Assembly: GCA_950295325.1 (NCBI GenBank)
Contig: OX485804.1
Location: 45,508,001-45,572,000, forward strand
Source: Polytrichum commune
Lineage: Eukaryota > Streptophyta > Polytrichopsida > Polytrichales > Polytrichaceae
Direction of reading: 5' to 3'
Length of the DNA: 64,000 bases
Positions within the stretch are counted from its first letter, which is position 1, and every line of letters begins with the position of its first letter. Position numbers and translations under genes: made by a program. Of this stretch, positions 3,633-53,772 are shown one piece after another. The notes beneath the pieces are model-generated. The model ran no database searches. It saw only the letters and a list, made by a program, of their open reading frames with translations, and had not been told where the DNA came from.

Positions 3633-4133
3633 CAGTAACCTCCCGCTTAAGTACGCAACTTGAACCTATGCAGTTTGTGCGTACTTAGCTAGTAGGTGCG
3701 TACTTTAGCAAAACAAATGCTCCGAGTAAAAGGGTGCTAGCCCAAGAGTGAAGATTGTTGAAATGGTGATGCATGATGATGGCGATGTTAACACTTAGGA
3801 ATTGAATATCGGTTTAGAAAACGGAGTTATATTCCAGGGTTTTGACTCTCTTTACAAGTAGGTTCTCGACATCGAGGATTAGCTACTCTGCCCTGAAGTT
3901 CAAACAGAAGCAAAGGAAACATTCAATGACCTTAAGAAATTGTTTGAATCATTTCAAAGCAAGATCTGAGCAGTCGGCCTCAAAACCAAACGCAAAAAAC
4001 TTCAAAGCCAAATGACGATTCACGACGTGTTCAACTAATAAATCTTGAACCCTAAATTTTTTGCCAAAAAATGCGTACTTAACCGGGATGCGTACTTAAA
4101 CGGGTGCGTGCGTACTTAAGCGGGAGGTTACTG
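3633..4133. mobile_element. pogo-type element, second family, with full TIRs and TA duplication
   Basis: The element starts CAGTAACCTCCCGCTTAAGT and ends in the exact reverse complement, giving a perfect inverted repeat of about 24 bp. A TA dinucleotide flanks each side (3631-3632 and 4134-4135). CAGT termini with TA duplication are typical of the pogo/Tigger branch of Tc1/mariner. The word GCGTACTTA is repeated at both ends, six times in all. Inside, on the plus strand near 3897-4038, two short frames separated by a stop end in TIHDVF, which resembles the TTIxDFF tail of pogo/Tigger transposases. The element is therefore probably an internal-deletion derivative of an autonomous copy. Confidence 0.8.
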
Positions 4134-4401
4134 TACCAAAGTGAAGATCCTCATGCTCATTAAATGGACATATAGGTTTTCCCCAACTTATATCGATTAT
4201 TGAGTTTAGAATGATTATCATATTCTTAACAATCTCTTTTAAACAATCGTCTTTTTGGTATTTGTTATTGGATCTACCACTTAAATATAGGTGCCCAATT
4301 AAGATAAGCAACCAAATGAGGCACGTCTACCTTAGCTAAAAACATTTCATAGGGTCGAAAGGCATTGCGACACCTGCCAACAACAAGCGTGTCTTCATAA
4401 G

Positions 4402-4412
4402 TACCTCCATTG
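4402..4412. repeat. target-site duplication, 5' copy, of the LINE
   Basis: TACCTCCATTG occurs here and again at 7311-7321, exactly flanking the LINE. An 11-bp duplication fits target-primed reverse transcription. Confidence 0.75.
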
Positions 4413-6744
4413 CACCTCATTACCATCCCAACTACAAGATTAAAATGGCTCTGGCAACAATACAATAAAGATAAATACAATACACACGGCTTAGTACCTC
4501 CCCCACAATCATTTGAAACAGAAGTAGTATGGCTCTACCAAAGATATAGCTCTAAAAAACGAAAAAAAGACCCACTAAAAATATCACAACACACTCTCCC
4601 AGAAAATCTCCTTGACTCCATCACCAAAATATTCAACATCACACACTCATACTTCTCCTCACCAGTAACATGTTCTACACATATCACTAAATTCTACTCT
4701 CCATTTGCAAGAGACAAAGTCTTTGGATCACTAGGTACCGCCTTCCAATATAAATGGAACGGAATTGGGTACGTATGCACACCCACATAATGAAGAAACA
4801 ACCCAACAAGTAATACACTGGGCAAGACTAGCAGCTAAAACCGACTCAAAGAACATCATAATATTAGTTACACCAGACAGTAACTGGTACCAAAATTACT
4901 CACCACTCACCGGACCATACCCGGACACACACTTGTTAGCCCATTTCAATGCAGACACCATTACATACGATGAACCTACAATCCCACAAAGCATAAGCAA
5001 ACCTCAAATAGAACCGTTAGCAATACACATCTTCTGTATCCACCACCAAAACATCAATATTGGCATAACCGACCAAATAAACACAATTAAAATAGTAATC
5101 GAAAACCTACAAATAGTACAATACCACATCCAAAAGGCCCCACCCACACCTTGTAATATTCTAGTAAACAAAAACGCTAAATGGAATAAAGTACTCTACC
5201 CACCCCATATCAACCCACCAACCACAAACATACCACCGTTACCAAACTTCGAAAAAAACACGATATTAAAATTCCCGCCACAATACAGCTACTACACAGA
5301 CGGATCGTTTATCCCACCCACACAAGCAAACGACAGACATTGGAAGAAACAAAAAGCTGGCTATGGAATTTACAACCCAACAAAAGCAGAAATACGTATA
5401 TTAAAAAGACTGCCTGGCCTACAAACCAGCTTTAGGGCTGAGCTAATGGTCATTCACAAAACACTTAGATTAATTACTACCAAATACACAAATGAACCAG
5501 CACACATATTCACAGACTGCCTCAACTGTCTATATGTACTTAACACTCAAATAAAACATCCTACCCACCATAACAACCATGCTGACAAAACCATATTAAC
5601 ATCTATGGTATAAATGCTAAAAACCCGAACACAATCCACTACGATATATAAAGTAAAAGCACACACGAACATTGATGGAAATGAGCAAGCAGATCAATTA
5701 GCAAAACTAGGCGCCAAAAAGAGATACAGATTCGCTGCCAAATCATACGAATTTGTACATACCACACCATACTACTTCTAAAAAGACACCTGGCCGGGAC
5801 CAAACAAATGACCGGACAAAGGCCCTGTCAGATGCCTCGAAACATATATAACTAAACACGACCAAGTTAACAACCTAAATACCATGTCAGAACAATTCCC
5901 TAACATTAGCAAATGGACAACGAACCCTAACATAGACAATGAAATATCTAATAATTTTTGGTATAACCCTATTATATCAGACTCACAAAAGACATACATA
6001 CTAAAATTCCGAACTGGACAATACATGGGCAATGCCAGAAAACAACTATTTTTTGGCATAGAAAGATTCTCATCCATTACATGTCCAATATGTAACTCCT
6101 CTGATGCAGATACATGGCTACATGTACTATTAAAATGTAATCAACACCATATACATGCCCTAAGAACCAAAAGGCATAACAAAGCAATATGGGAACTAAG
6201 AAAACTAATCCTATCATCACAAAAATCAAGATGCTACATCCTTATGAATGCAGGGACATTCGACAACAATCCACAAGAGAATACAGTCCCCACATGGCTC
6301 CTACCATGTACATGTGTACAACAAAGATGCCACTGCAACGCACGATTTAAACCCAACCTCCTATGCATCAAAGAACTCCCACACCAAAGCACCCCACCAC
6401 CAAACCCAACATACAACCTCACGGTACAATTTATTGAATTCACATACACAAATGACAGATTCCCACAAGATACAATAGACAACAAAATTCAAAAATACCA
6501 ACCACTAATTAATGACATCACCCAACAAGGCTGGAAAGTAGACCCATTTATAGTCATTGCGGCTGGAGCTAGAGGAACCACACACACCCCGTCAATGAAA
6601 CAACTAGAACAAACATTCAAACTACCTCAAAATTCTATAAACCATACATTCAAAGAAATAAACACCATTGCCATACAACATGCCAGTTCAATCCTTCTAC
6701 ATAAAAGATGTATTGAAAATAACCAAGCAATACCAGCAGAATAA
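4413..6744 (+). pseudogene. LINE ORF2 C-terminal part: PCIF1-like domain, RNase H, zinc knuckle (broken)
   Basis: Two frames joined by a frameshift near 4765-4790 encode a contiguous polyprotein segment. First comes a region with YFSSPVTC, FGSLGTAF and, after the shift, AHPHNEET followed by IIILVTPDSNW. This order resembles the PCIF1-type N6-adenine methyltransferase fold, with HPHN where PCIF1 has NPPF. Next is RNase H with all four acidic positions: Asp in YYTDGS (5299-5301), Glu in RAEL (5440-5442), Asp in FTDC (5515-5517) and Asp in EQADQLA (5692-5694). A C-x2-C-x9-H-x4-C knuckle lies at 6082-6138. In-frame stops at 5611-5613, 5779-5781 and 5809-5811 show that the copy is dead. The last frame ends at 6744. 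The family assignment to a LINE is firm; the methyltransferase resemblance is an inference from motif order. Confidence 0.8.
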
Positions 6745-6956
6745 TGAATAAATAAACAAACAAATAAAACAAAAATATAAGAAGGGAAAATATATATATA
6801 TATACATAACTAAATTTAATTTAATTAAAAAAATCAAATCAAATCAAATCAAACAAGATAATCCTTTATTGAACAATATTAACACCAATAGCTCAGGAAG
6901 ACGGGTAGGAGCCGGCTGGTTGGTACAAATTTCCTGCCGTTAAAATCACTAGCAAC

Positions 6957-7072
6957 ACCAAGTCATGTATAACACACTAAACGCTCAGACGAACTCAACG
7001 GGAGTCGAACCCGGACCGCCTACATGTAGTTAAACATCCTCCCTCAACCAACCAAGGAAACATGACTTGGCG
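6957..7072 (-). repeat. tRNA-like sequence within an inverted repeat in the LINE 3' UTR
   Basis: Read on the minus strand, the segment has a perfect tRNA B-box (GGTTCGACTCC) inside a CGGG/CCCG stem and an A-box-like TTGGTTGGTTGAGG about 50 bases before it. The outer ends, CCAAGTCATGT and ACATGACTTGG, form a perfect 11-bp inverted repeat. It lacks a clean acceptor stem and anticodon arm, so it is not called as a tRNA gene. It could be a small SINE-like insertion or a tRNA-derived structure. The second LINE copy lacks it. Confidence 0.5.
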
Positions 7073-7310
7073 ACCACCAAACACAACAAATTACAACTTA
7101 TACTACAACACTGCAGCAACTACGTGCTAAACAACTAAGGAGGGTTACCTTTAGTGTTGTTTTCCGGTTACTATAGTGTCCATCCCCGGAAGGGGAGAGT
7201 AGTACTGTCCAAATTTCCCCTTGTCTGGTAGGCATTGGGTCTTTTGACAATACGAACGGACACTCTATTCACGCCGGCCCTTTAAATAGGGACCGGAGTT
7301 TCTATCTATC

Positions 7311-7321
7311 TACCTCCATTG
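7311..7321. repeat. target-site duplication, 3' copy, of the LINE
   Basis: TACCTCCATTG, identical to 4402-4412. Confidence 0.75.
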
Positions 7322-8500
7322 AGCATGAAGATTGGTTGCCATGTGTTATCTTGCTTCAGGAATTTAGGGTTCCGATTCCAATGACCAAAATATGCAAATA
7401 GGGGCGTTGAAGGTGACTTGGGACATGTTTTCGAGCTTGAGCATAGAAGCAGGTGTAAATGCATGCAGTGATTCATTCTGAAGAAGATGTTTCCTACTGG
7501 ACTGTGTGTGGGACTCAGGTTCCAGATCTGCTCTTGTAACTAGAATACCAATTGGTAGCAGAAGCGAGTTGAATTGGCTGTTCATCTGTCCGTGAAGAAG
7601 ATGGGAATCGAGTTGCAGGAAAACAACGTGCTGCTCAGAAAACACATTCATCGTAAGCCCCATGCTTGTGCCTTCATGGCTCGGGGCAATTTCTCGGGAC
7701 ACATTCCTCATTCTATACTTGTCATGCATCGTTCATGGTAAACTTGATCGTTGTGCAGGTGACATCCACCTTCCTCTCTTGATTGGAATCAACAGAACTC
7801 CAGGCCATGAACTTGCCTGCATTGATGTTTTAATCCAGTGTATAAGGGTTGTGTACCTGTAAACATCAGAAACCTGTAACTCAATTCCATACACAACAGT
7901 GATGCAGGGATGCAGGATTGGAATCGATAAGAGTGCACATACCGTGACTCATTCAAGTGTGAAGTTTTGGATGGAGTTATACTCCTGGCACTACTATTCA
8001 CATGCGACATTGTTCATCCTAGCATTATTCACTGAGAATATTATTCGTAGTAGCACTATCACTGATAACACCAATATTATTCTTATCATTCATACCAACA
8101 CTGTTCATTCTTCGTATCAGCGTCAGTTTCTTCCCATGAAAGTAAGATAGTGGAGGCCCATGTCAGATTCCAAATACAAAATGGAACACAACCATGCATG
8201 CAGCTGAATATGTTATGGAGAAACCATGTCTTCACGCAAACATAGTATCAAGTGCACAGCAAGTAAGCTTAGGGCTTACTAATCAAATGGGGAATAAACA
8301 TACCAAGTGCTGCATGCGAAGAGTTTTCAATTACACAACACATCGTTTTTCTTTCGTCAAGCGTCTGGTGAAGTAGGCTTGTGTTGGCCACCCAAGTGAC
8401 CTGAGCTTGGTTTTCAGGCCACGCTAATGCCGCCGTTTGGAGTCCACCAAACTCTTGCTGGTGGTTTCTGGCTAAACCAGAGTTCAGGAAGTTTTTGAAG
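7322..8500. other. intergenic sequence of moderate GC, no gene assigned
   Basis: The composition differs from the AT-rich repeats around it, and several 60-120 codon open frames occur on both strands (for example 7364-7729 minus and 7662-7862 plus). None has a recognisable motif. An unspliced or non-coding transcript is possible, but the sequence gives no positive support. Confidence 0.3.
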
Positions 8501-13744: not shown

Positions 13745-15704
13745 CTAGCTGCTGGACGACTTTTGTACAGATTGTTTTGGCACTTTCGGAGCTTTCGGCA
13801 CTTTCTGAACTCTTAAATGCTTTGGAAGGAGATTCTGCTGTGAAGATAGCTCTGAAATGAAGAGCACCGTGTGTGCCCAGCCTGCATAACTGCCAAATCT
13901 TTCAACAAAAGCATCGGCAACCTCCCGGTGCAACTTTACAGTGAGCTTCTGTCCTTCCAGTTTAGGTAAGAGATAGCGCACTGCAATCTGCACACTTCCA
14001 TCACATGTCAATGCACCATCTCACAAACATAGGAAGACTCCACAAATTATGCCCAGTATTGGCTTAGTCAGTGACAAGAAGCATTTTCATCTGATGCAGA
14101 ATTAAAACCACGGTAAAAAGTTGTTGATGATCGAGAAATGCACCTGCCACACATGAGTGTCAACTGGGATAGCATGATGTTGGTCCAAGGAGAACAATGC
14201 GATACATGCTGCCACCTTAGGGCCGATGCCTGGCAATGTGCACAACGCAAGGACTGCATCCTCCAGCGACTGCTTCCGCAATGACAACAACCACTGCTCC
14301 CCCCCTTCCACTTTCTGCCTCAGCAATTCTGTCGTCCCTACAATATACTTCGCCCTGAAAACAAGCAAACACACAAGAAATGACCACCAATTCAAGAGCC
14401 AGGATCTCAAAAAGACTCGCACATGTTGTAACGTTGGTATTGTGGTCGTTCACACCTAAAAATCCCCAGAAGACACACTGTCAAGTTAAAGGGTTACATT
14501 TGAAAGTGGGGTATTTAAAAGGGGGGTATTACTTTGCTGTTACTGAAATTTTTGGACCTTGTGACTTCGTCAAGACGCATGATACTGGCAGGTAAAGTAG
14601 GGCGATCATAAACAGCTGCGGGATGAGGATGAGTCCAAATGCAATGGTGAGAAATCTCAAGAATCAAGGAAATTTGACAGTGCAAGCTTACCGGTATCCA
14701 AATCCATTTTCTCGGAGCTGCGACTCGGTGACAGGGGCCAGCTGTTCCAAGGAAGGAAACACATGAAACCGAATCCCACTCACAGAACCCAAGAAAGTCC
14801 CTTGACGAGCGAGATACTCCACCATGGATGCGATCCGTTGTATGTGGTTGTTTGAAGAGCAAATGAACTGAAATACACATTCTAGCGGCGGTTGCCGCAG
14901 CAATCGAGCCCCCGCAATGAAGGGCGCCACCTCTGCGAATCGAGCATCCGCGGCGGAGAACTGCGCATACAGATCTACCAGGCTCGTGTGCAGGTTCAAA
15001 TACTCCCGTAGATCCTTCTCCACTTCAGATAACGAGCCAGCCGTTTCCTGTGACGAAGCATGGTGTAGGAACTCAACCTCATCTTCAACCTGACGAAGAG
15101 TGATCAAATGTGGACCTACCACCCCTGTATACTGCGATTGCCCTGTCACCTTCCACCTGAAACTCTGCCCTACAGGAAGAGTCACATCCAAACAAAGCTC
15201 CGCGCGGCCGACCCCGAGACCGCACCATTCACCAAATCCTAATTTCGCCCAGCAGTCGAGCTCCACCTCATTCTTCACATCCTGGCCAACTTCTGCCACA
15301 TCCTCAAGTTTCGGGAACTGAGGCAAAACATTCCTGGAGACACGTTTGACATCCTCCACCACTTCACTCTTGATGACTTCCTTCTTCACATCCTGGCCTT
15401 GTTCTGCCAAACCTTTGCGTTGCGGTAACCCAGGCAAAACCTTCCTGGAGACATGTTTGATGACCTCCAAAACTTCATTTTTGACTTCCTTCTTAACAGC
15501 AATCACGTGCTTGATGTCAGTGGTTTTTCGCAACTCTTTGACATCCAGAGAGGATTTGAAGAGCTTCTTGGAGACACGGGACCTGACGCCTGACTCCTCC
15601 TCGTGAGCTTCCAGCACTCTTTTCCTTTGGCTCCGGCGAGGCACCAGCACCGGGGTCAAATTCCCTCCCACCGCAGCAGCAGTGGAAGACGCCATTCGCA
15701 TCAT
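13745..15704 (-). CDS. OGG1: 8-oxoguanine DNA glycosylase/AP lyase, 3 exons, about 488 aa
   Basis: OGG1 removes 8-oxoguanine from nuclear or organellar DNA and nicks the abasic site, starting base-excision repair. Exons on the minus strand are 15704-14692, 14354-14144 and 13987-13745, with GT-AG introns and phases that join exactly. Residues 170-310 form the OGG_N fold (PVGQSFRW near 177-184, CSSNN at 282-286). The HhH-GPD core follows: GFGYRAKY across the first junction, hairpin LPGIGPKVA with catalytic Lys384, and PVDTHVW with Asp403. The C-terminal helix FGSYAGWAHTVLF is present. The enzyme body matches plant and animal OGG1 of 345-365 aa; the extra length is an N-terminal extension of about 140 residues. 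That extension has a basic cluster PRRSQRKR (22-29), likely a nuclear localisation signal, and two tandem 36-37 residue repeats (70-105 and 106-142). The start at 15704 was chosen because further upstream the frame runs into tandem repeat DNA; Met4 (15695) or an upstream in-frame ATG at 15833 are alternatives. Confidence 0.93.
15302..15510 (-). repeat. internal coding tandem repeat in OGG1 N-terminus
   Basis: Two copies of a roughly 110-base unit encode VKKEV...HVSRKVLPGLPQ and VKKEV...RVSRNVLPQFPK, each ending in GQD, and are followed by a third partial start VKNEVE. The charged, Val-Lys-Glu-rich units look helical or disordered. They are not part of the known OGG1 fold. Confidence 0.8.
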
Positions 15705-15778
15705 CTTCAGATTTGACAACGACCAAGAAAACTTAAACCCTAGTAACGGCCGCCTAGCCTTGGCACAACATGACAAGC

Positions 15779-16423
15779 ACTTATATGCACAGCTCCATTG
15801 AGTACCGGGCCATGCCAAAACTGCACTTCTCATTCTTCATTTGATGATGCCAATATCCTCATCCTCCGTACCTGAGGCTGCTCTCAAATTCCAATTACGC
15901 AACCCAAGCCCTCACAACGGCTGCCTGCTAGCTAAGCACCACTACAGATACACGAAGCTCCGCTGAGTGCGGGGCCATGCCAAAACAAAAATTCTCATTC
16001 TACATTAAGTGCTGCTAATATGCTCATTTTCCTTGCCTGATGATCTGCTCCTGCATTCCATTTCTTCAACTCAAACCCTACACACCGGCTGCCTACGAGC
16101 TAAGGATCCATACACACGAAGCTCCACCGATTGCCGGGCCATGCCAAAAACGTACTCCTCATTTTTCAATTGATGCTGCTCATATCCCCATTCTCCTTAC
16201 CTGATGATCTGCTCCAAATTCCAATTCCTCAAACCCTCACAGCCGCTGCTACAAGCTGATAAGGATCCATACACGCACAGGAAGCTCCACTGAGTGCCGG
16301 GCCATGCCAAAAATGCACTCCACATCCTTCAATTGATGCTGCGTTCAAACATCTCCATTCTCCTTGACGAGCTCCTTTTGAATTTCAATTCTTCCACCCG
16401 AATCCTGCTGCACCGCAACTTGG
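15779..16423. repeat. four tandem ~155-bp repeats upstream of OGG1
   Basis: Copies are at about 15779-15936, 15937-16106, 16107-16264 and 16265-16423. Each has the core GGGCCATGCCAAAA preceded by AGCTCC and followed by TTCTCATT or a variant, then CTGATGATCTGCTCC or similar. The copy nearest OGG1 contains the in-frame ATG at 15833. The copies are 70-85 percent alike by eye, so the array is not recent. It probably lies in the promoter or the 5' leader. Confidence 0.85.
15942..16325 (-). promoter_or_regulatory. three candidate upstream ORFs in the OGG1 leader repeats
   Basis: On the minus strand three repeat copies each open with ATG and encode related peptides: 15998-15942 (18 aa), 16162-16100 (20 aa) and 16325-16197 (42 aa). 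They share M-x-x-x-x-LAWP-x-x-x-x-S. The fourth copy's equivalent ATG, at 15833, is in frame with OGG1. If the leader is transcribed, these could act as uORFs that lower OGG1 translation. No transcript evidence is available. Confidence 0.35.
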
Positions 16424-40258: not shown

Positions 40259-40628
40259 TTAGGCACCACGGGCCTTGGCTTGGTGGTTAGGGCTCATGAC
40301 CCCCAATGAGGAGGTTGTGGGTTCTATTCCTCATGCTAGCGTGGTGCTCACCACCTTAGTCCACCCAACTATGGTGGGGGGTCGTTGGACCTTGTTGTAT
40401 GGGTACCTCAAAGCCCTTTGGGGGGATACCATGTCCAGTATCTTCAAGGCAGTAGTGGCTAGCTAGGAACTTGTATAGTGTGTCACTATAGTGTCCATCC
40501 TCGAAAGGGGAGAGTAGTATTTGTCCCAATGTCCCCTTGTCCAGTGGGCATCGGATCATTGGCATTACGAACAGACACTTTATTCACGCCGGCCCCTTGC
40601 TTGAAAGGGGTTGGAGTTTCTATCTATC
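40259..40628 (+). mobile_element. tRNA-derived SINE sharing its tail with the LINE family
   Basis: The 5' head has RNA polymerase III promoter-like boxes: TGGCTTGGTGG (A box, about 40272) and GGTTCTATTCC (B box, about 40321). From 40482 the sequence follows the LINE 3' end at 7170-7310 closely (CTATAGTGTCCATC, GGGGAGAGTAGTA, CCCCTTGTC, CACGCCGGCCC, TTTCTATCTATC). The element is flanked by TGGCTAACCAT at 40248-40258 and 40629-40639. A tRNA-like head plus LINE-like tail is the standard SINE arrangement. Confidence 0.85.
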
Positions 40629-41090
40629 TGGCTAACCATCTCGTACCAAGTTAACCATGTGTGTGTGTGTGTCATATCCCACAAAGGAGTGGGTGAGTCG
40701 AAATAGAAGTAACCATTGAAAGGCCGCCTACCCTTAGGGTTGGGTGGGTACCTCAAAGCCCTTTGGGGGGATACCATGTCCGGTATCTTCAAGGCAGTAG
40801 TGGTTAGCTAGGAACTAGTATAGTGTGTCACTATAGTGTCCATCCTCGAAAGGGGAGAGTAGTATTTGTCCCAATGTCCCCTTGTCCAGTGGGCATCAGG
40901 TCATTGGCATTACGAACGGACACTTCATTCATGCCGGCCCCTTGCTTGAAAGGGGTTGGAGTTTCTATCTATCTGGCTAACCATCTCGTACCAAGTTAAC
41001 CGTGTGTGTGTGTGTGTCATATCCCACAAAGGAGTGGGTGAGTCGGAATAGAAGTAACCATTGAAGGGCCGCCTACCCTTTAGGGTTGGG
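40401..41090. repeat. 345-bp tandem duplication including the SINE 3' part
   Basis: 40401-40745 and 40746-41090 are about 97 percent identical by eye, both starting GGGTACCTCAAAGCCC. The unit joins the 3' two thirds of the SINE to about 115 bases of flank that includes a (GT)n run. This is a recent unequal-exchange type duplication, so the second SINE tail is not an independent insertion. Confidence 0.9.
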
Positions 41091-43574
41091 TGGGTGGGTA
41101 GGGTAGAACGCAAGAGAGGGCAGTCCACATGTGTGGCCATACAACAACAAGGACGCCTACTGTGGGCCTTGGCAGGGTTTCCCACAGTCTGTTTTTTCCC
41201 ACCCAAACCAACAACTTATATATGCTGCTGCTGCTGCTGCTGCCACTGGGGTCGGTTACTTTCTTTCCGAGTAACTTGAGCGTGACTGCTGGCCCGTGCC
41301 TTAGATCTTTGGGAGGACTTGGCGGCCCAGGTGTGGATGAATCCCAAGGCACCCTCCCTAGCTCACTATCTTATGCGATGGTCAACGTGCACGAGCGAGA
41401 ATCACTTGGGAAGAGGTGAATGGGGAAGAATATATACTACCTTCCCTTGGATTGGGGGAAGAATTATAAGCACGCATTCGAAATCGCATGCTCTCTCTCT
41501 TAAATACCCCGCTCTTAAAGGTCGTAGCTAGGTTAGCATCTAGACGGTGCTCGAATCAACACCCTATCCAACATTAAACGCACTGTGAAATGTTGCGCGA
41601 TGAGTACATGTTGGCATGGGGTATGAGCATGTTCGCCGGCTTAGCATCGAGTTCTCACATGTTTGGTTTCGGGTCATCATCTACTGATATGACCTTGCAT
41701 TCTTTTTTATAATATATGCACTTGGATTTCAAAATAAGAGCATGTTTTGGAGCATTGGAATCACCGTGGTTATGAACAAGGTGAAGCATCTCTCGTTCAC
41801 GCTGACCCAACGGTGCTCTCCATCTCTCTCGCACGATCTACCTTGCATTTTGATGTCGAGGCGGTCCCTACCCTTAAATGAATGAAGTTTGTGCGGACTA
41901 CATTTGGTATTTTCTTCCCTACACAATGAAATTTGTTGAGGGGAGGAGGTAACATGCTTCTCCAATCTTGGAACATCGCCTCAAACGCCGAATGGTTGTG
42001 GGGATGCTCAATATGTACATTCATTTGCCTTTCCTTTGTGACATGAAAGAGACCTAAGCAAAGCCTCCTTGGACTAGCTACCCCCCCCCCCAAATGATTG
42101 GAGCTTCTCCTCTAGACCCTCTAATCGTGAAGATTTACAACACGGGAGGGCAAGGATAGTGTTGTGGGGAAAGTCATCCTCTTCTTCAATCCTTGTACAC
42201 CACCTTGTGAATCAAATGGTTACAAAGATGCTCAAAAGAAACCTTCATTTGCCCCTTCCCCTGCCCCCCCCCCAAATAAAAATAAAAGATGAATGAATGG
42301 GTTGTAAAGTTGTCACATCCTTGTACAAAGTTTGAAGGTATGGTGAAACGTAGGAGGGTAGTTTTGGTATAAATGGAATTGAAGGTGGGTTGCTTTTCAA
42401 AGTTCTAGATGGATTAATTTGCAACACATTATTAATGTTCATGTCAAATATAGGTGATTATCACCAAACTTCATATCTTACCTCTTTAGTATTTCATGAC
42501 ACATTGTTAAAAGTCATGCTATGTGTATCACGAGTTTGGGTATTAAAGCTTTGTGTTTGATGACGTTGTCTACATCAATAATGAATTCTCTCATTGGTGT
42601 CCTATTAGGGTTTTCAATGTGCCCATCTACACATGTTGAGGTGTTGCCACATCAATGCAGCCCGGACATCGCATGGAATAACATGGGTTCTACATAACGG
42701 AAAGCTAAAGGTCTCAACTATGAGATTCTCTGAGAGATACTACCTACTCGGAGATGGTGGTACCAAGGTGACACCGATGTTTGTGTTATATTACTCAACA
42801 TAAACACGCCCTAGTAGGGGTGCAAAAATTTCTTTAATCAACAAGTGTTGTCATCTTTCTAAATGTTGCAAGTTGGTGGAGCCGAGTGAATTGCATCTGA
42901 TACATGGTGGTTGAGTTCAGTGAGCTATTTTCGATTCAAATTTAACGCAGTGACCCATCCTCAAACCTAAACATGAGCTTGAATGTGAATATATACAATT
43001 TTATATTGGAACAATTATTGAAATAGTTTATGACCACATAACATGTCCCTTAGGGTGAGTAATTGTTGTGTACTATAGCTAAACTTGTAATTATGTATAT
43101 GAAGGTTGGCTATCAACAAACCCTCCCGTCAATATTCATTTCAAGGTACATGGGCCTTATGGGGTCACTTTTATAAGTTGGACACATGAATTCAACCTAG
43201 GGGTTTGCCTTGGGGGAGATAGGTGCATGTCAACATGTCTATGCCCGTTCAAGGTGTTTGCTTTGAAAGGAAGTAGTAGTCAAACTTAAAGATGAAGCAA
43301 TATGAATGTCATTTGTTTTTACGAGAACAAACACCAAACATACAATCGTTAAGACAACATTCGACTATGTCAACTAGGCCAGGGATTTGCACCACTCAAA
43401 TTAGTTGAAGGTGACAAAGGTTGGGAACCCCTCACGACTCGGAGATCGATCTCTTCATAAGTTCAACATGTAATATTCATCAATGATCCCGATCAATCTA
43501 CATCAATTATTGTATTCAATGTCACTTGCTACTTATAATTACGCAATGTTATAACTCTTTGGTACGTAGTAGAG
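41091..43574. other. intergenic sequence, nothing recognised
   Basis: Contains a (CTG)n run at about 41224-41242 and C-runs at 42079 and 42264. No gene is supported. Confidence 0.5.
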
Positions 43575-53166: not shown

Positions 53167-53179
53167 TTTACAAATGTTG
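53167..53179. repeat. target-site duplication, 5' copy, of LINE fragment
   Basis: TTTACAAATGTTG, repeated at 53773-53785. Confidence 0.8.
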
Positions 53180-53772
53180 GCAAATACAGACCATTAATCG
53201 CTAGTATTGTTGCTAGAGGATGGAAAGTTGATCCCCTTATTATCATAACTGCAGGCGCTAGAGCCACTACACACATTCCATCAATGAAATCACTCGAAAA
53301 TAATTTCAAAATACCTATGCCTACCATTAAAAACACCTTTAAAAACATCAATACTATCGCTATAAAATATGCCATGTCTATCCTCCTCCACAAAAGAAGA
53401 ATAGAAAATCACCAACCGCTACCCCAAACACTAGACCCCCATAGTTAAAGCTAAAAAAAAAAAATTTAAAAAAATTTAAAAAAAAAATCTTTAATAACTA
53501 AAGCTACTCCATTCAATCAACCAATAATGAGCTAGGGACTCGGTGACCAAACTCATATTAATAAAACCTAAAAACTAACCATTATGGTCCTTGCTACTGG
53601 TTACTTGTGACTATAGTGTCTACTCTCGAAAGGGGGGAGTAGATCCTTACTTCCATACCTTTGTCCTGTGGGCATCGGATCGGGGGTGGATCGAACATAC
53701 ACTTAATTCACGTCAGTCTCCTCCGGAGACCGAAGTTTGTTTTTTTTTTCTTCGTCTTTTTTTTTTTTCTTC
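53180..53772 (+). mobile_element. short 5'-truncated LINE copy
   Basis: It is flanked by a 13-bp duplication. The first codons after the duplication read KYRPLI and align with KYQPLI of the LINE at 4.4 kb, then RGWKVDPLIIITAGARATTH and HTFK/NTFK, INTIAI and SILLHKRRIEN, ending at a stop at 53446-53448. The tail (CTATAGTGTCTACTC, GGGGGGAGTAGA, TTGTCCTGTGGGCATCGG) matches the LINE and SINE tails. It ends in T-rich sequence rather than (TATC)n. Confidence 0.88.

Follow-up and report, generated by a model that had tools for sequence, protein, structure and literature searches.

A LINE family of Polytrichum commune with a PCIF1/CAPAM-like domain that lacks the NPPF loop and is probably catalytically inactive

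PCIF1 (CAPAM) is the enzyme that modifies the first nucleotide of capped mRNA. Retrotransposons with nucleic-acid modification enzymes have been described: DNA methyltransferases (DNMTs) are carried by elements of dinoflagellates and charophytes (PMC5890265), and an m6A demethylase by Gypsy elements of orchids (PMC9289625). Where such enzymes are active, their presence is read as a sign that the element fights or exploits host marks. In Dualen/RandI elements, a C-terminus resembling that of R2 joins an AP endonuclease, reverse transcriptase and RNase H (PMC4640811). Peptides of the 2A type, with the motif D[V/I]ExNPGP, are known in LINEs of trypanosomes and sea urchins (PMC4981915), and almost none have been reported for plant viruses (PMC12846837). 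We describe a plant LINE family in which a Dualen/RandI-like make-up and a 2A-like peptide accompany a predicted PCIF1-like fold, starting from one damaged copy in a 64-kb stretch of the Polytrichum commune genome (the window).

The copy in the window is a broken, 5'-truncated insertion on the forward strand with an 11-bp target-site duplication on either side (Table 1). A sequence-only reading of the window had let the feature begin at 4413; this is really the truncation point of the insertion, adjoining TACCTCCATTG, and the element reaches 7310. When 13 loci (L numbers) were chosen for comparison, 12 gave alignment rows, and the match to the window begins at 4413 in 11 of them and at 4414 in L016. 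By the reverse transcriptase of its long relatives L011 and L016 and by its own 5' truncation and 11-bp duplication, the element is a LINE, or non-LTR retrotransposon. Truncation removed the N-terminal edge of the PCIF1-like domain, and a frameshift near 4774, located from the pieces of the BLAST match, divides the remainder. The sequence-only reading had listed four motifs in order ahead of an RNase H with intact motifs. The order stands, with YFSSPVTC and FGSLGTAF in frame 4401-4790 and AHPHNEET and IIILVTPDSNW in frame 4735-5613, the spread over two frames being due to the frameshift. The RNase H, however, is not intact: its last catalytic H and D lie, as judged by eye, beyond the stop codon at 5611-5613, and its Pfam match covers positions 4-86 of 141 at 23.7 bits, under the cut-off of 25.8. 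The PCIF1-like segment itself was borne out, since frame 4401-4790 matches Pfam PCIF1_WW at 44.5 bits (cut-off 31.1, E 1.7e-11). We set the end of the domain at 5130 by eye, following the extent of the L011 model described below. At the other end of the element, homology of the 3' UTR with L016 and L011 extends to 7315.

Table 1. Features of the LINE family in the window.
Feature	Coordinates	Strand	Basis or remark
Left copy of target-site duplication, TACCTCCATTG	4402..4412	+	Same 11-mer again at 7311-7321
LINE copy, 5'-truncated	4413..7310	+	94.9% identity to L002 over 1855 bases
PCIF1/CAPAM-like domain, predicted methyltransferase fold	4413..5130	+	PF12237, E 1.7e-11; model of homologous L011 segment matches PCIF1 structures
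HPHN at position of NPPF catalytic loop of PCIF1	4780..4791	+	L011-6irv alignment; sequence reading
RNase H, stop codon inside at 5611-5613	5284..5710	+	Pfam RNase_H 4-86/141; sequence; end by eye
Zinc knuckle (CPIC..H....C) and restriction-like-endonuclease-like C-terminus	6082..6741	+	Alignments A4, A5
3' UTR, short TCTA repeat at end	6745..7310	+	Homologous 3' tail in L016, L011
Right copy of target-site duplication	7311..7321	+	Matches left 11-mer
Second, far shorter remnant of LINE family	53179..53439	+	C-terminal piece only; 82% to L011

Some further observations concern the window. Within 6860-7310 the LINE 3' UTR has a minus-strand stretch, gggagtcgaacccgg, which we take to resemble a tRNA B box; ARAGORN predicted no tRNA in 4000-8000, and Rfam gave no match anywhere in the 64-kb window at gathering scores. 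A two-copy tandem with a 345-bp unit lies at 40400-41095, and part of it is approximately 80% identical to the terminal 144 bases of the LINE 3' UTR; the unit may be a SINE with a tail taken from the LINE. On the minus strand, 14688-15836 holds a 382-aa ORF with an internal repeat of approximately 111 bp; by its motif, it resembles the start of an OGG1-type 8-oxoguanine DNA glycosylase.

The genome that we searched comprises 408 Mb in 64 contigs, seven of them of 42-78 Mb. A 121-aa piece from the window matched 150 scored places among 1593 candidates, and all 150 places scored with PCIF1_WW (697 candidates) passed its cut-off. A second group was reached via a 2A-bearing locus; it shares 36-42% identity with L011 over the domain region and gave 150 scored matches among 2257 candidates, the overlap with the first list being uncounted. 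L011 and L012, on different chromosomes, each lie in a 2625-aa open frame, and the 802 residues compared between them are 99% alike. This near-identity suggests recent movement. Stops are present in many copies. Two scans of IMG/VR confirmed no relatives. In the same genome, the RuBisCO small subunit gave 19 matches on contigs C7, C2, C6 and C1, many of them clustered, and rbcL lies on contig C8, followed by another ORF that we assume to be accD.

The long ORF of L011 reads, in order, reverse transcriptase (RVT_1, 2.2e-29), PCIF1_WW (2.9e-10, 40.4 bits) and RNase H (4.2e-13, positions 5-140 of 141). L016, from another subfamily, has Exo_endo_phos_2 (9.9e-8), reverse transcriptase (3.3e-27), PCIF1_WW (2e-12, 47.5 bits) and RNase H (3.3e-15, positions 4-140 of 141) in a single ORF. 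All four L016 domains exceed their Pfam cut-offs, Exo_endo_phos_2 with 32.3-33.1 bits against 27.4; the corresponding L011 piece is under that cut-off. The placement of the segment in one polyprotein thus held in both loci, as read from single intact copies rather than from a whole-element consensus. Against the PDB, a profile of the AP endonuclease (A3) reached exodeoxyribonuclease III at a weak E of 0.08.

In long intact copies, the block of AP endonuclease, reverse transcriptase, PCIF1-like domain and RNase H has a 2A-like peptide upstream and a putative R2-like C-terminus downstream. The latter has a zinc knuckle and, in both groups, the conserved columns PD...E.T...K..KY. A C-terminal profile (A5) matched two PDB sequences, 8gh6 and 8ibw, both named 'reverse transcriptase-like protein', at a weak E of 0.12 over a zinc-knuckle-like stretch; we take both to be R2. 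The putative restriction-like endonuclease at the C-terminus gave no Pfam match, and its profile (A4) no PDB match. For the upstream ORF1-like proteins, Pfam gave no match in L015:2-1669 and weak, chance-like matches alone in L013:1717-3957 (best 0.049).

The 2A-like motif GDIE[x]NPGP sits before the endonuclease in L013 and L015. Its coding pattern occurs at 255 places in the genome, and the reversed control gave 0. Of 54 such places on contig C1, 37 have a same-strand PCIF1-like match 3.9-13.9 kb downstream, compared with a mean of 0.3 for random places; in 28 of those 37 the distance is 4.4-5.1 kb. Six of the remaining 17 were examined, and five are LINE sequence through the PCIF1-like region; the sixth, L090, matches an earlier part only. 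L091, of the second group, was likewise found through a GDIExNPGP site. Judged by the motif D[V/I]ExNPGP, this would be a natural 2A/StopGo-like peptide in a plant LINE family.

All 30 members of alignment A2, which represents both groups, matched PCIF1_WW at E<=1e-6 (best 1.2e-13), a level that no other family reached; at E<=10, the other Pfam families were few and weak (best 0.046). Second-group members scanned singly were above the PCIF1_WW cut-off of 31.1 in 8 of 10 cases, with the other two at 29.9 and 30.3. The aligned part of most of these matches stops before or near the catalytic loop (e.g., 9-106 of 176), and the loop position was assigned by pairwise alignment of L011 to 6irv, which places HPHN on NPPF. 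Comparison of a single sequence with the PDB put PCIF1 at the top but weakly (E 0.1), with LAMTOR5 behind it at 1.4-1.6. Profile A1 found PCIF1 at E 0.012 and no other protein at E<=10, and profile A2, run against 177,635 PDB sequences at the same threshold, gave two matches, both PCIF1, at E 0.0011.

Structure prediction depended on the alignment supplied. AlphaFold2 with A1 (13 similar sequences from one group) gave a poor model, with a pLDDT of 46.5, and with A2 (30 rows from both groups, core of 253 aa) it modeled the L011 segment at a pLDDT of 80.7 and a pTM of 0.78. Foldseek with the A2 model ranked six CAPAM entries first to sixth, at E 4.1e-11 to 6e-8, and the seventh rank fell to 2.8e-3. 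VIA-align scored the CAPAM entries at Z 15.4-16.2 over 208-221 residues at 4.0-4.3 A, and the next entry at Z 8.2; its best alignment (Z 16.2) pairs 221 residues with human PCIF1 residues 424-668. Identity of the segment to PCIF1 is approximately 17% (Foldseek). Among viral structures, the six best matches included five giant-virus PCIF1_WW proteins, the fifth rank being unnamed. A search for WW domains at E<=1 found none in 2179 aa of the L011 ORF, in 2112 aa of the L016 ORF or in the upstream pieces of L013 (579 aa) and L015 (806 aa). Profile and structure searches alike put the segment in PCIF1/CAPAM, well ahead of all else, rather than in an unrelated fold, and we are highly confident that it is homologous to PCIF1/CAPAM and shares its methyltransferase fold.

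The replacement of NPPF by HPHN, which the sequence-only reading had picked out, turned out to be part of a family-wide loss: NPPF was found in 0 of 103 copies read, and the second-position proline is the one residue that never varies. The 82 loops of group 1 read HPHN (40, one of them preceded by T instead of A), HPHT (28), HPNN (5), HPPN (4), HPHS (2), HPHK (1), HPYN (1) and HPHP (1). The 21 loops of group 2 read FPTD (12), YPTD (4), HPKD (2), HPTD (2) and FPKD (1). The stretches FSSP[VL]TC and FGS.G are nearly invariant in both groups. The tally covers 103 of 104 loci, L066 being unreadable there, and excludes the repeats L018, L063 and L064 and the domain-less L013, L014, L015, L060, L061 and L090. 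These loci are a non-random sample of the search matches, some chosen because their frames are long and others because they are divergent, and the 103 places stand against 1593 and 2257 first-look candidates.

Mutants of PCIF1 with APPA or SPPG serve as inactive controls (PMC10544176). In Drosophila Pcif1, the F of the NPPF motif is an H, which 'could explain' the missing m6Am; honey bees lack m6Am though their motif is changed just from F to Y (PMC9479742). The honey bee case implies that more than the loop is involved. The suggestion that the domain may be inactive is nonetheless well supported by the 103 loops, and we consider it probable that the PCIF1-like domain, with other conserved residues in place of the NPPF loop, performs no adenine methylation. 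The motif alone is no proof of lost catalysis, and the His, Tyr and Asp of the replacement loops could serve other chemistry.

Selection on the domain was estimated from 14 non-overlapping pairs, hand-picked within groups and comprising 28 of the 30 rows (L002 and L035 were left out). In the domain core, dN/dS was 0.057-0.209 in 14 of 14 pairs and 0.077-0.209 in the seven pairs with dS <=1; dS exceeded 1 in the other seven, where the ratio is rough. Without correction, non-synonymous change per site was 0.195 of synonymous change. Pooled pairs with dS of 0.05-1, in which L016 and L018 are one place counted twice, gave 0.085-0.118 for the domain, 0.060-0.113 for RNase H and 0.26 for the linker; constraint on the domain is thus close to that on RNase H and tighter than that on the linker. 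Among very young pairs (dS<0.05), the linker reached 2.2, and the ratios were 0.40 in the domain, 0.42 in RNase H and 0.24 in the C-terminus; such higher values are as expected for recent copies that have yet to be purged, and are themselves no evidence of selection. The loop codons vary synonymously (CAC/CAT, CCA/CCC/CCT) while group 1 keeps HP, and the replacement loop is therefore selected, not decayed. From the loops and these substitution patterns, the domain is a selected and most likely catalytically dead methyltransferase fold, not junk, and the strong purifying selection implies that it does something the element needs.

Several other explanations were weighed against this one. The least probable is chance or convergent similarity of an unrelated fold, to which the poor first AlphaFold2 model, the low identity to PCIF1 and the weak single-sequence PDB match with LAMTOR5 behind it would lend themselves; this fails to account for PCIF1_WW as the one family matched strongly in every A2 member, for profiles that find PCIF1 alone in the PDB, and for a structure match far above the next, which in our view refute it. 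Very improbable, too, is that the loss of NPPF is recent decay of dead copies while active masters retain the motif. Many copies do carry stops, but NPPF is also missing from long open frames of 2625 and 2919 aa, and of 2123-2422 aa in group 2, and the replaced loop is preserved through synonymous change. An active methyltransferase with an altered loop, working on the element's RNA or cDNA or on a different atom or substrate, is improbable to a lesser degree. The near invariance of FSSP[VL]TC and FGS.G across groups and the conservation of the replacement loop within each group speak for activity. However, none of the 103 copies read retains the Asn or the aromatic residue of NPPF at its position, the new residues differ between groups (HPHN/T versus F/Y/H-P-T/K-D), and double changes of such residues are the standard dead PCIF1 mutants (PMC10544176).

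Our preferred reading, to which we give a probability of roughly 0.55 as a whole, is that a dead PCIF1-type fold is kept for binding an RNA feature of the element's transcript. Intact LINE relatives encode a PCIF1/CAPAM homologue between reverse transcriptase and RNase H; as a pseudoenzyme, this domain would bind that feature and so hold the reverse transcriptase to element RNA that is full-length and capped. PCIF1 recognizes both the m7G cap and the first adenosine, and LINE proteins need to locate their own template. Because of these two facts, we tentatively favor RNA or cap recognition by the domain, at a little under even odds. The most specific form of the proposal is unlikely: the domain would be a cap or first-adenosine reader derived from a dead writer; attached to the reverse transcriptase, it would detect the modified or capped 5' end of the element's mRNA and would couple target-primed reverse transcription to a full-length capped template. 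We know of no cap-sensing cis-preference device in any other LINE. The domain is not net basic (net charge -6 to +7 over 30 members), which counts against plain RNA binding, and PCIF1-style cap binding may be impossible given that no WW domain was found and that the alignment begins only at human residue 424. A structural or protein-contact module, either a folded spacer that sets the position of RNase H and of the C-terminal nuclease or a docking site for a host factor, is less likely than not, and nearly as likely as RNA recognition. Strong selection without the catalytic motif, near-neutral charge and a position between two enzymatic domains all suit it; it leaves unexplained the high conservation of the stretches that correspond to active-site-adjacent loops of PCIF1. 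The PCIF1 loops that match the most conserved columns form the active-site pocket.

Nothing points to competition with a host enzyme, since we saw no host PCIF1 gene: a 94-residue segment of human PCIF1 gave 120 matches in the genome at E<=10 (best 3.7e-4), and all six of the matches examined are LINE copies, five of them clear and one (L066) old and decayed. Introns or short exons could conceal such a gene. As the sequence-only reading had proposed, the retrotransposon family likely captured a PCIF1-type domain; a donor was not found.

Captured cytosine methyltransferases and an m6A demethylase in retrotransposons are already known. For a PCIF1-like domain, our literature search, which judged the best-ranked matches largely on titles and the beginnings of abstracts, found no report of a retrotransposon that carries one. 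A survey of eukaryotic adenine methylases by Iyer, Zhang and Aravind may mention one. A very numerous plant LINE family seems to retain a writer's fold and not the writer's catalytic loop, and, if confirmed, this would be a retrotransposon pseudoenzyme derived from epitranscriptomic machinery. It makes testable what the PCIF1 fold does without catalysis, a question that Drosophila Pcif1 also asks.

The DNMT- and demethylase-carrying retrotransposons resemble this family in having taken in a nucleic-acid modification domain, whereas they belong to other element classes and carry other enzymes, whose activity was shown (PMC5890265, PMC9289625). Dualen/RandI elements share the combination of AP endonuclease, reverse transcriptase and RNase H, to which the family adds a C-terminus that may be R2-like as theirs is, a likeness of domain make-up and not of reverse transcriptase clade; the part of the account consulted mentions no PCIF1-like domain for them (PMC4640811). 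The giant-virus PCIF1_WW proteins of pithoviruses, Hokovirus and Tetraselmis virus 1 have the same predicted fold (E 1.3e-9 to 2.6e-6) but are viral and stand outside retrotransposons. Drosophila Pcif1, a catalytically dead orthologue, is alike in its altered NPPF loop (PMC9479742) and differs in being a host gene where the LINE domain sits in a mobile element. With PCIF1/CAPAM itself (PF12237; PDB 6irv-6is0), the domain shares the modeled fold over 221 residues and the succession of [FY][AS]SP[LV][NT]C and FGS.G. Unlike PCIF1, it has no NPPF, no WW domain was found with it, it corresponds to the human protein from residue 424 onward, and it lies inside a retrotransposon polyprotein.
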